From contig JAEUUY010000030.1 of assembly GCA_016787225.1 (NCBI GenBank), positions 62,001 to 126,000 on the forward strand: a stretch of 64,000 bases of DNA, given 5' to 3'. Source of the stretch: Chitinophagales bacterium. Lineage in GTDB: Bacteria; Bacteroidota; Bacteroidia; Chitinophagales; JADJOU01. How positions within the stretch are numbered: the first letter of the stretch is position 1; each line of letters begins with the position of its first letter. Of this stretch, positions 4,519 through 8,197 are shown in pieces. A program made the translations under genes and the position numbers. The notes beneath the pieces were generated by a model that saw nothing but the letters and a program-made list of their open reading frames with translations, had not been told where the DNA came from and did no database searches.

Positions 4519-4520
4519 TT

Positions 4521-4598
4521 CAGTGGACAGTGGTCGGTAGTCAGTTAGCTAGAGGCTAGACACAGAGATACACTGAGAAGACACAGAGAAGCACGGAG
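4521..4598 (+). repeat. Intergenic direct repeat, copy 1
   Basis: This 78-nt segment matches 4741-4818 in the same orientation with no gaps and 10 mismatches (87% by eye). It contains the core acacagagaagcacggag. It starts two bases after the fdhF stop. Similar 'acagag/acggag' sequences are commonly seen as dispersed intergenic repeats in bacterial genomes; no open frame is associated with it. Confidence 0.75.
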
Positions 4599-4740
4599 TA
4601 GAGACTCTATGAACCTCCTAATGCTCTGTGCAACTCTGTGAAACAACCAGCAGCTAGCGACTAGAAACTAAGATATACAGAGTATCATGAAGGTTCATCT
4701 CTGCGTCCTTTGCGTCTTTGCAGTAAAATATATAAGTAAT

Positions 4741-4818
4741 CAATGGACATTGGTCAGTAGATAGTTAGTTAGAGGCTAGACACAGAGTTACACGTAGAAG
4801 ACACGGAGAAGCACGGAG
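4741..4818 (+). repeat. Intergenic direct repeat, copy 2
   Basis: Second 78-nt copy of the repeat at 4521-4598. Between the copies lie a reverse-oriented fragment (ctctgtgcaactctgtg near 4624-4640) and the motif tcctttgcgtctttgcag near 4707-4724. The spacing suggests a two-unit array with an inverted partner rather than a simple tandem duplication. Confidence 0.75.
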
Positions 4819-4903
4819 AAAAACTTTTTAAAGGGCTAGTGTTGTTTTTTAGTAAAGTTACAAAATAAGCAAACCCAGCAGTCGCGCCAAGCCTTTAGGT
4901 GCA

Positions 4904-5071
4904 GAGGTGGTCGTTTTAGCTATCAAGGCTAAAGCTTTGAGAAAACGACTTAAAAGTTTAGGTAAAGTCGCCAAAGTTTATGGATACTATGTATAAAGCT
5001 TTAGACAAATTCGTTAAAATTTTAAGCATCATGGATAAAATTTTAACGGACTTAGCTAAACGAACCACCTC
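4904..5071. repeat. Nested inverted-repeat element (MITE-like or structured RNA)
   Basis: A 168-nt block bounded by 18-nt near-perfect inverted repeats (gaggtggtcgttttagct at 4904-4921, complementary to 5054-5071 apart from a shifted T). Inside are a perfect 10-bp stem (4929-4938 with 4995-5004, ctaaagcttt), a 6-bp hairpin nested in it (4946-4951 with 4965-4970), and a perfect 13-bp hairpin (5012-5024 with 5036-5048). The fold would be an outer stem enclosing two arms. No protein frame is apparent. It could be a small non-autonomous mobile element or a structured transcript; which one cannot be told from one copy. Confidence 0.6.
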
Positions 5072-5135
5072 GGAGGGTAAAACTTAGGGTTTTAAGCAAT
5101 TCATGAATAATTAACATATTTATGGGAATATCTTT

Positions 5136-5143
5136 TATCTTTG
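5136..5143 (+). promoter_or_regulatory. Putative Bacteroidota -7 box (TAnnTTTG)
   Basis: tatctttg matches the TAnnTTTG element recognised by the Bacteroidota housekeeping sigma factor. No good upstream TTG element is obvious. It would drive a short leader frame at 5166 and the STAND NTPase gene at 5287. Confidence 0.4.
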
Positions 5144-5165
5144 TTTGAAACAAAAATTTAGAAAA

Positions 5166-5264
5166 ATGGGGCTCAACTATGCTAATTTATTGCGTGATAT
5201 TACCCAAAATAGGGTGGATATACGAAGAAAGTTGCGGATGTTATATAGTTGTGTGAAATTTTAA
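5166..5264 (+). CDS. Short 32-residue leader peptide or truncated gene remnant
   Basis: An ATG 22 nt after a TAnnTTTG box opens a 32-codon frame (MGLNYANLLRDI onward) that stops 22 nt before the STAND gene. It is rich in arginine (RRKLRM) and has no recognised family. It may be the 5' end of a gene interrupted by insertion of the STAND cassette, since the candidate cassette boundary (gttatat at 5240) lies inside it; it may also be a leader peptide or chance. Confidence 0.25.
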   Translation: MGLNYANLLRDITQNRVDIRRKLRMLYSCVKF

Positions 5265-5286: not shown

Positions 5287-8049
5287 ATGGATTATACTCA
5301 GAAATTAAGAATTAAAACAGCAATGGTTATTTATGAGCTTGAATTATCATTAGGAAATTATGTGATTGACAATGAGGTCTTACATAATATCCCAGCTTCA
5401 AGTTTGGATTCCATTGTTGAACGGGAGGCTTCAAAGGGAAGAGACATAAACAAAAACAACTTGAATTTAATAGTTGAGGCAAGTTATCTTGATGAAATAT
5501 TCAATTTTGCAATAAGCATCACGGAAAATACAAGTTTGCACACGCAAATGATTGAATTAAAACAACTCTGCTCAATTCTTGGAATATTTAATATCAGAAA
5601 CGCGGTTAGTCATCCCAATCGTGCATTCCCTGATTGTTATTGGTTTAGAGTTGCAACAATAGCCAGCGACCCACTAATTGAGAGATTGAATTTAACTTCA
5701 GTTAGAAACGCATTAAATTCTGCAATTGAAGAAAATTTAAATACTCCACCAGATGAATGGTTGTTTAATGTGAATTGGGCAATTCCAAATACTTTGCCCA
5801 TGGCTTTTGATCATGAAATAACAGGATTACTTGGAAGGGATAAAGAATTTAAGGATCTAGAATCAGTTTTATCTAAAAACAGGAGTAATCTGGTAGCTAT
5901 TGTAGCACCAGGTGGGATTGGAAAAACCGCTCTTGTACTTCAATATTTGAAAGACTTATCTTTAAATCCTCTGTGGTCTGCAAAATTAAGTGCAATAATA
6001 TTTTGTACTTTAAAGAACGAAAAACTCACTGCAAATGGAATTGAGACGATAGACGCTATTAGTGGTATAGAACAAATTAAAGATTCAATTTTTGAAGACC
6101 TCAAGAAAATTTACTCCAATAAATTTCAGTTTAGCTCATTTGATGAGGCCTTAACTGATTTAGAAAACGAAAATATTTTGATTTGTATTGACAATCTAGA
6201 AACATTATTAGTTGATTCTCAAAAAGAGTTTATAGAATTTAATCAATTATTGCCTTTAAAGTGGAAATTACTCGTGACAAGCAGAATCTCAATAGATTCT
6301 GCTACTACAGTCCCTTTAGAACCTTTAGTAAAGAGACACGCAGTAAACTTGGCAAGAAACTATTTTAGAAAAAGAGGTGTACTTGATTTTAAACAAGATG
6401 AACTGGAAAAAATTGCTGATGCAGCGAATAACAACCCTTTAGCAATTAGACTTACTATTGATTTGTATTTAAATGGTGGAGACATTAAATCTTCCATATC
6501 TAAATCCCAAAAGGACATCGCTTCATTTTCCTACAAAAATCTTATAGAGTCACTAAAGAACAATTCTATTTCATTGCTAGAAGCAATTTATGCAATTGGA
6601 CAACCTACACGACTTGATTTAATTGATTTCATCGAAATGGACAGAGATGACCTTATAGAATCATTAAATGAGCTTGCCAAAACAAGCTTAATAATAAGAA
6701 GCACAGATGAATACGGTAATGATGTTTACAAATTAAGTGATTCAATTCGTGATTTGCTATTAACGAATCCAAAAAATATTGAGATAAGAAATAGTATTAC
6801 AGAAGGTCTCAAAAAGCGAAAATCCAAAATACTTGAACAATCTGCACGAATCAAGCAATTAGGGCTTACCGAACTTGATGAAGAATTTATACCTGAAGAT
6901 ATTGACCAAAGCTTGTATGTTCTTATATCTGATTTGAACAAAACACTTGGAAAAAACAACAAGTATGATATTCAGGATGTGATTTCCATAAAAGACAGAT
7001 TTTTAGAGGTAATTAAATATAAAACTAAGGACAGTTTACTACTATACAATTATTCTCGAATATTTAAAGCACTTAGGGATTTCGCTAACGAATTAACTTA
7101 CTTGAAAAAAGCCGAAGAAACAGATCGTCAATCACCGAAGGTTAAATTGGCAATTGCCCTATGCTATTTTTATAATAGCGATTATGAGGAAGCAAAAGAG
7201 TACTTCGAAACGTTAATAAATACTGGGGCAAATATTCCAACAAATACAAATAAAAAGTTTAGTTTTTCTGTTACAAAACTATACCATTTATGCCTTTTAT
7301 ATTTAGGTGAGTACGACACAATAATTGAATCCTCAAAGAATTGGAAAGAATTAGATTATTGGTCAGGACTTGTTGGCGTTTATAGAGCAACTGCGTTAAA
7401 ACGAAAAATTGAGTTCAAATTTTCATCTATAACTTCCAATGAAGTCATAATTGCTGAAATATTCGATATTTTCAATTTTGTATTGACCGCGGAAAACTAC
7501 TTTGATGCTGCATGTGTTGAAGCAAACAAAATAATCAAGGATTTAATTTTTATCATAAATCCTAATTATGAATACTCCCAAGAAATAATTCATAAATATT
7601 TAGATTTTGTTGCTGTACACTTCTTCAATATTATTTCAAAATTAAGAAGCGAGAATCTTACAAGCGCGGAAAATCAAGATTTCATTTCTAATCTTTATGA
7701 TTTCAATATTGATAATAACCCTCTTCATAAGGTAAAATGGTATAAGAAAACTTCCGAGTTTGATTCAAGATATGATATCGAACATCTGGAAGAGTTAAAG
7801 CAGGAAGGCTATGAGATTGTTAAGGTCTATCATATACCTGAGGATAAAGGTTATGGAATGTCAAGTTTTATGTTTGCAAAGAATGACGCAGGTCAACAAT
7901 TTTATTTATCTGTGAATTACTTTGATCAGGGTTGGAATAGATGGGGATATATAAAAGAGGGAGATTGCTTAGCTATAAAATTCACGAGATCTTCAATAAT
8001 AAATAAACCACATCCAGCAATTGAGATAATCGAAATTGATAAGTTTTGA
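5287..8049 (+). CDS. HEPN-like / STAND NTPase / TPR protein, putative defence or NLR-like protein
   Basis: This 920-residue protein has an N-terminal helical region with the HEPN-type motif R104-N-x3-H109 (RNAVSHP). A STAND NTPase core follows: Walker A APGGIGKT at 207-214, Walker B ILICIDNLET around D302, LLVTSR at 328-333 and a PLAI motif after it. Then come helical, TPR-like repeats (about 560-720). The last 80 residues resemble an OB or cold-shock fold (KGYGMSSFMF, then YIKEGDCLAIKF). HEPN motifs of this form occur in RNases, and STAND proteins sense invaders and switch on an effector in prokaryotic and eukaryotic immunity. That this one is a phage-defence protein is inference. It stands alone, is AT-rich, and is followed by a long hairpin element. 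Confidence 0.7.
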   Translation: MDYTQKLRIKTAMVIYELELSLGNYVIDNEVLHNIPASSLDSIVEREASKGRDINKNNLNLIVEASYLDEIFNFAISITENTSLHTQMIELKQLCSILGIFNIRNAVSHPNRAFPDCYWFRVATIASDPLIERLNLTSVRNALNSAIEENLNTPPDEWLFNVNWAIPNTLPMAFDHEITGLLGRDKEFKDLESVLSKNRSNLVAIVAPGGIGKTALVLQYLKDLSLNPLWSAKLSAIIFCTLKNEKLTANGIETIDAISGIEQIKDSIFEDLKKIYSNKFQFSSFDEALTDLENENILICIDNLETLLVDSQKEFIEFNQLLPLKWKLLVTSRISIDSATTVPLEPLVKRHAVNLARNYFRKRGVLDFKQDELEKIADAANNNPLAIRLTIDLYLNGGDIKSSISKSQKDIASFSYKNLIESLKNNSISLLEAIYAIGQPTRLDLIDFIEMDRDDLIESLNELAKTSLIIRSTDEYGNDVYKLSDSIRDLLLTNPKNIEIRNSITEGLKKRKSKILEQSARIKQLGLTELDEEFIPEDIDQSLYVLISDLNKTLGKNNKYDIQDVISIKDRFLEVIKYKTKDSLLLYNYSRIFKALRDFANELTYLKKAEETDRQSPKVKLAIALCYFYNSDYEEAKEYFETLINTGANIPTNTNKKFSFSVTKLYHLCLLYLGEYDTIIESSKNWKELDYWSGLVGVYRATALKRKIEFKFSSITSNEVIIAEIFDIFNFVLTAENYFDAACVEANKIIKDLIFIINPNYEYSQEIIHKYLDFVAVHFFNIISKLRSENLTSAENQDFISNLYDFNIDNNPLHKVKWYKKTSEFDSRYDIEHLEELKQEGYEIVKVYHIPEDKGYGMSSFMFAKNDAGQQFYLSVNYFDQGWNRWGYIKEGDCLAIKFTRSSIINKPHPAIEIIEIDKF

Positions 8050-8060
8050 TAAAAAAACTT

Positions 8061-8197
8061 CACACAACAGCCGTTTGCCGCAATGGGGGCTGACGTGGTT
8101 AAATCAAGTGCAGTGCTCCTATCAGCATTTGTGCTTGGTTGACAGTGAAGTGCTCCGAAATCCCCCACTGCGGCAAGCGGCAAAACGATATGCGTCA
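8061..8197. repeat. Long imperfect hairpin after the STAND gene, attC-like candidate
   Basis: Arms gccgtttgccgcaatggggg (8070-8089) and its near complement (8162-8181) pair over 20 nt with two mismatches around a 72-nt centre. The element begins with cacacaac and ends with cgatatgcgtc. The overall plan, conserved short end boxes around an imperfect palindrome just downstream of a gene, resembles integron attC sites, but the end boxes do not match the consensus well (cgatatgc in place of gttrrry). The segment ttcacacaac at 8059-8068 is the exact reverse complement of gttgtgtgaa upstream of the gene (5249-5258). Confidence 0.5.

Follow-up and report, generated by a model that had tools for sequence, protein, structure and literature searches.

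The analysed window, i.e., the whole 64-kb stretch of DNA, contains at 4904..5071 an element lying upstream of a + strand gene (5287..8049) for a 920-aa STAND-like protein, the 'defence-like gene' of the initial annotation, in which weak ATPase_2 and AAA_16 matches and one TPR were detected, with Pfam scores below the curated cut-offs and mad8 (E 0.0034) as the only PADLOC match. Synteny analysis revealed that the formate-dehydrogenase-like and LUD genes bordering this region are neighbours, about 90-120 nt apart, in the genomes G001 (same genus), G002 and G003, so the ~3.9 kb from 4519 to about 8420 (right end approximate) represent an insert of this lineage. The insert comprises the repeat array described below with 35 nt of its gene-side flank, a right flank module (5065..5263, + strand) and the STAND-like gene. 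The right module is shared with contig C21 (85% over 199 nt at C21:86591) and, more weakly, with C29:2670 and G001:C91, and it carries TATCTTTG at about 5136, which we take to resemble a Bacteroidota -7 element. Among 396 genomes of the order, its 3' part matched a single one, namely this genome (three places), and it matched none of the viral contigs; a widespread mobile downstream module was rejected on these counts. In addition, a 79-nt direct repeat (4520-4598 and 4740-4818, 87%) with CAGTGG/CACAGAG words forms the second-best 21-periodic stretch of the window, and a long hairpin with a stem of 13 bp + 6 bp (8070-8182, DNA fold z -2.4), presumably similar to a cassette-end palindrome, directly follows the STAND-like gene. 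The strongest tandem repeat of the window by autocorrelation, with period 48/24, is situated elsewhere, at about 44504.

All inverted repeats reported in the initial annotation were found, nested, at 4904..5071, including a perfect 13-bp stem (CGTTAAAATTTTA/TAAAATTTTAACG), and both strands fold far better as RNA than shuffled sequences (+ strand, -54.0 kcal/mol, z -6.5; - strand, -51.5 kcal/mol, z -7.6; 0 of 200 dinucleotide shuffles as good on either strand, with the same excess in a repeat run of 40 shuffles), supporting the nested inverted-repeat element with a branched fold proposed there. The outer 18-nt terminal inverted repeats claimed in the same place, GAGGTGGTCGTTTTAGCTA (from 4904) and TTAGCTAAACGAACCACCTC (to 5071), are present but imperfect, with a one-base offset after 8 bp. 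Moreover, the element is periodic at 21 nt, with a match fraction of 0.46 at lag 21 and again at lag 42 against a mean of 0.28, and an autocorrelation scan identified it as the best 21-periodic 168-nt stretch of the whole 64 kb, peaking at 4893 with a z of 7.6 (such z values are the product of a scan and should not be read as formal probabilities) and showing its signal at lag 21-22 and the multiples thereof. The 168 nt equal 8 x 21 and, when wrapped at 21 nt, fall into register with one 22-nt step, the first units being AGTTTAGGTAAAGTCGCCAAA, AGCTTTAGACAAATTCGTTAA, AATTTTAAGCATCATGGATAA, AATTTTAACGGACTTAGCTAA, and so on. Each unit conforms imperfectly to a dyad of the type (G/C)(C/T)TAAANNTTTAG(G/C) centred on TAAANNTTTA, with a symmetry P of 0.003 in a comparison with permuted columns, and the units start at about 4892, 4913, 4934, 4955, 4976, 4997, 5018, and 5039. 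The stretch 4892..5071 is thus a worn array of eight dyad-symmetric DNA units with a strict 21(22)-nt pitch. Because dyad units can pair with themselves and with one another, they give rise to the branched fold, the hairpins, and the inverted arms, and the outer arms are the first and last half-sites of the tandem array.

The genome-wide search for further copies that the initial annotation had called for revealed that the element is not single-copy: blastn identified two more in this genome (G000), at C1:1348-1605 (91% over 262 nt) and C1:38431-38617 (88% over 188 nt). G001, of the same genus, has a single copy at C100:42725 (79% over 228 nt). In line with the initial annotation, a real repeated non-coding element precedes a defence-like gene at short distance, the STAND-like gene lying 0.2 kb downstream of the window copy. 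The copies at C1:1.6 kb and G001:C100 are located 5' of, and within 1 kb of, a divergent gene for a protein of ~160 aa belonging to the family described below, frameshifted at C1:1.6 kb, and blastn and gene positions showed that the left flank of the window array (4857..4891) is homologous to the spacer between array and gene at these two places. At L070 (1690-2159, G000:C1), the family gene beside the window-type array is split by a frameshift, and it is intact in G001. No family gene is close to the copy at C1:38 kb, which has a sharp left edge because it is cut there by an IS end adjoining an rve/HTH_21 transposase frame; the same IS end directly follows the array on C14. It was noted at L085 (about 2355) and L008 (about 2618), i.e., after the C14 array and left of the C1:38 kb array, and the arrays or their surroundings may be IS targets. 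Beside the C1:38 kb copy, genes for AbiJ_NTD4, a PDC-S26 nuclease, and an Eco57I-like methylase are clustered (L071, 8786-14371). The extent of the flank shared between copies differs from copy to copy.

The ~160-aa protein family was detected in 47 of 396 genomes of the order, with 120 matches and up to 8 per genome, and in 31 of 395 genomes sampled across the phylum, with 26 of these 31 falling outside the order. Among the members scanned, there was no NCBIfam match, no Pfam match above the curated cut-off, and no known DNA-binding domain, and the PHROG matches were only weak; a profile search of the PDB with the family returned nothing convincing, and no members were found in phage records, plasmid records, or viral contigs. 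Structure prediction from a single sequence gave a useless model (pLDDT 38.7). The proteins are mostly acidic, with a median pI of 4.86 among 71 proteins and five above 7. Such acidity is unfavourable to plain binding of nucleic acid, and a partner protein may be involved. Paralogues in G000, G001, and G003 have 21-nt arrays of their own, differing in word and placed either 5' or 3' of the gene, and several different words occur per genome. No family gene was found in the 64-kb window, and thus none within 1 kb of its array, which is therefore called an orphan. The window array shares its word with arrays of the same protein subfamily elsewhere, as local alignments revealed a common word in the arrays at L100, L116, and L119, from other families, whose proteins share about 40-56% identity with the MPLNNL type. 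This word class is located 5' of the gene at L078, L082, and L116, and 3' at L100 and L119; at L078 and L082, the array is the same as that of the window.

The association between arrays and family genes was examined in 75 of the 120 family matches (35 from searches and 40 taken roughly in score order, the remainder being lower-scoring and some contig-end matches). Of these 75 loci, 48 contain a 21- or 22-nt array (z>=6); among 100 segments of 3,450 bp taken as controls from the same genomes, 6 do, and these six matches were 7-mer simple repeats or 42/44-mers. Outside the order, the 25 loci supplied by the phylum-wide search, which had not been used before, yielded an array in 19 cases (43-nt arrays counted). 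A single-lag spectrum computed within 700 nt of the gene at 100 loci (z>=5) was sharply quantised, with 1, 50, 24, and 1 loci at lags 20, 21, 22, and 23, respectively, with 1, 38, 16, 11, and 0 at the double lags 41, 42, 43, 44, and 45, and with 2, 35, 14, 4, and 10 at the triple lags 62, 63, 64, 65, and 66; every other lag tested between 8 and 75 gave 0-3 loci, and the signal was confined to 21-22, 42-44, and 63-66, as helical phasing would have it. By the same measure, 66 of the 100 loci reached z>=6 and 34 fell below z 6, such that about a third of the family loci have no detectable array. Lags of 64, 66, and 63 were observed beside the family gene at L225 (about 2071), L096 (about 2347), and L101 (about 2503), respectively, and L225 also showed lag 32, which is close to three turns of the helix. 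A survey of 20 regions of 14-16 kb placed 19 arrays no more than 1 kb from the gene, with a single array in the other 262 kb; of these counts, only the far one is informative, given that the regions were mostly picked from array-bearing loci. Taken together, the window array belongs to a phylum-wide class of arrays situated 5' or 3' of the genes of one unnamed protein family.

Furthermore, the similarity of arrays between genera rises with the identity of the proteins beside them (Mantel r 0.288, 69 arrays, 0 of 2000 permutations; r 0.31 and 0 of 1000 in an earlier set of 51 arrays with z of at least 6), the 69-array value being computed without gene-overlapping arrays, short genes, and same-genus pairs. 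The distal flank, i.e., the DNA lying 120 nt past the array, showed r 0.034 against protein identity (176 of 2000 permutations). When arrays were shuffled only within a genus, so that composition and lineage were controlled for, the count was still 0 of 2000. These comparisons of sequences indicate that the unit word evolves together with the protein. Among arrays with z of at least 6, dyad symmetry reached P<0.05 in 29 of 52, and the 23 without significant dyad include the cleanest ones. When gene-overlapping arrays were set aside, 42 of 67 arrays were on the 3' side of the family gene, and a terminator-like hairpin was detected within 120 nt of the gene's stop at 24 of the 42 loci with 3' arrays (1.4 expected), in 23 cases before the array, suggesting that the array is not in the gene's mRNA. 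A genome-wide regulon of single sites was also considered and rejected, since there was no excess of such sites (3 perfect window-type dyads versus 5 of a control pattern).

From the observed periodicity, gene association, coupling, and insert, we infer, with a probability of about 0.5, that the phased dyad sites are bound by a dimer of, or in dependence on, the cognate family protein and that the window array is a second address for this system. A pitch of 21(22) nt corresponds to two turns of B-DNA, by which all units would face the same side of the helix, and each array might serve as a cluster of candidate binding sites for a dimer of the product of its cognate gene or of a partner tied to it. 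Loading of such a dimer could be cooperative, resembling that on plasmid iterons or centromere arrays, and each paralogue would thus possess a private DNA address. The orphan array of the window would then be a second address for an MPLNNL-type protein, 0.2 kb upstream of the STAND ATPase gene, and a protein occupying it could silence or mark that gene.

In geometry, the nearest known systems are plasmid iterons and the centromere arrays of ParR and TubR, in which helically phased sites spanning about two turns follow one another in tandem next to the gene for the protein that binds them. The arrays described here likewise consist of tandem phased units of about two turns beside a gene, with a system-specific word and putative binding; unlike iterons and centromere arrays, they are chromosomal and multicopy, have different words in one genome, and accompany an acidic unnamed protein. 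REP/BIME elements are likewise palindromic intergenic units that occur in several copies; they are not known to have a 21-nt pitch, and the word here is private to each locus type. BrickBuilt, a 23-nt minisatellite MITE of Porphyromonas gingivalis with leader and tail at 19 places, resembles these arrays in its intergenic imperfect tandem repeats, similar unit length, and Bacteroidota host, and differs in having one word, 23 nt, and no partner protein in the accessible part of its description (PMC4596501). The TAACTGA heptamers of a few Bacteroidetes are also short direct repeats in intergenic DNA, but with a fixed 7-nt word and no link to one gene family in the available portion of their account (PMC4679880).

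In protein-plus-repeat layout, the nearest known system is type III toxin-antitoxin, which fails on position and protein family. Following ToxIN, in which a small protein is combined with cognate tandem repeats according to the accessible text of PMC8860590, transcription of the array could yield a tandem-repeat RNA binding to the ~160-aa protein in the way ToxI repeats bind ToxN. The small protein, the tandem repeats, and the word-protein coupling all reproduce the layout of a type III pair as outlined in that text, and on most of the strands tested the arrays outperform shuffles in folding; better folding would, however, be given by dyad units anyway. In type III loci, the repeats act as RNA and are placed 5' of the toxin gene, between a promoter and a terminator (PMC8860590), whereas 42 of 67 arrays here are 3', with 21/22-nt units in 8 or more copies. 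Among the members scanned, Pfam, NCBIfam, and PADLOC gave no toxin match, including ToxN/CptN/TenpN families. Compensation within units was tested in arrays with z of at least 6, 43-nt arrays and arrays with N being left out: a first test gave 13 of 47 at P<0.05, but 4 of 47, no more than chance, remained once the axis was re-maximised under a stricter null, and hairpins selected as RNA were rejected on this ground. Nor does an RNA partner give an evident reason for exclusively 21/22 nt, and we regard it as unlikely. The three-way-junction RNA of the initial annotation fared no better: on the four copies, which are few for a covariance analysis, the RNAalifold covariation term was 0 with 1 of 48 pairs showing a double change, and an Rfam scan of the element found no family near its gathering score. 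It is likewise improbable that the arrays are operator clusters for an unrelated regulator with the family gene as merely one target among neighbours; the dyad symmetry, the intergenic location, and the position of the window array 0.2 kb upstream of a gene would suit this, but the word tracks the protein subfamily even under within-genus shuffling, one word class is found 5' at some loci and 3' at others, and there are several words per genome.

Some arrays are nearly perfect tandem repeats (L106, L122, and L142), as neutral minisatellites that arose by slippage and lie there by chance would be; yet the pitch remains 21-22 nt across all word types seen, arrays are enriched at the family gene with controls suggesting rarity elsewhere, and the word is kept where the flank is not, rendering this origin very improbable. 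A miniature inverted-repeat element or decayed transposon end pair, as envisaged in the initial annotation, would agree with several copies having sharp partial edges and with a window copy inside a recent insert, but it is highly improbable: the inverted arms are edges of the array explained by its internal 21-nt tandem structure, the flanks are of unequal extent, the edge at C1:38 kb is an IS end, and the target duplications expected around copies were not seen by eye. An IS21-type MITE was considered, as GGTAAAACGACCAC repeats at G001:C91 resembled IS21 ends, and was dropped: that stretch is a 22-nt array of the same 21/22-nt class, and a search of the genome with the IstB model for an IS21-family transposase matched only a 486-aa frame (34.3 bits), which we take to be a DnaA-type ATPase. 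Since 21 nt equal 7 codons, decayed coiled-coil coding sequence was also weighed, and heptad-like short frames (KALDKFV KILSIMD KILTDLA) are discernible by eye in the window array; it was discarded and retains hardly any credence, as in 31 of 51 arrays none of the six reading frames stays open across 168 nt, and the dyad symmetry and the 22- and 43-nt pitches oppose it as well. Separately, several arrays in G000 and G001 lie near restriction, Abi-like, or STAND genes, but a defence-island link was not upheld: the 140 ORFs nearest 20 family loci and the 140 ORFs of 20 control regions matched 170 versus 102 PADLOC models, and no order-wide link of arrays to defence genes was established from this comparison.

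Returning to phased sites bound by, or in dependence on, the cognate family protein, a broader reading is advanced tentatively and with some doubt, in which the family would constitute phylum-wide orthogonal protein-DNA address pairs, with a co-evolving word, a constant pitch, several pairs per genome, and orphan arrays through which the address reaches new genes, a STAND defence-like gene among them. No account of the gene-array pair emerged from literature searches confined to open-licence PMC papers. Even if another mechanism applies, the link between gene and array and the quantisation at 21/22 nt are open to immediate testing with existing data. If the coupling reflects physical binding, Bacteroidota genomes would contain an entire, as yet unnamed class of protein-DNA pairs in which specificity evolves while geometry stays fixed. 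Such pairs would provide matched sets for studying the co-evolution of binding specificity as well as a candidate chromosomal partition or silencing device, and they would explain worn intergenic hairpin clusters that otherwise resemble decayed mobile elements.
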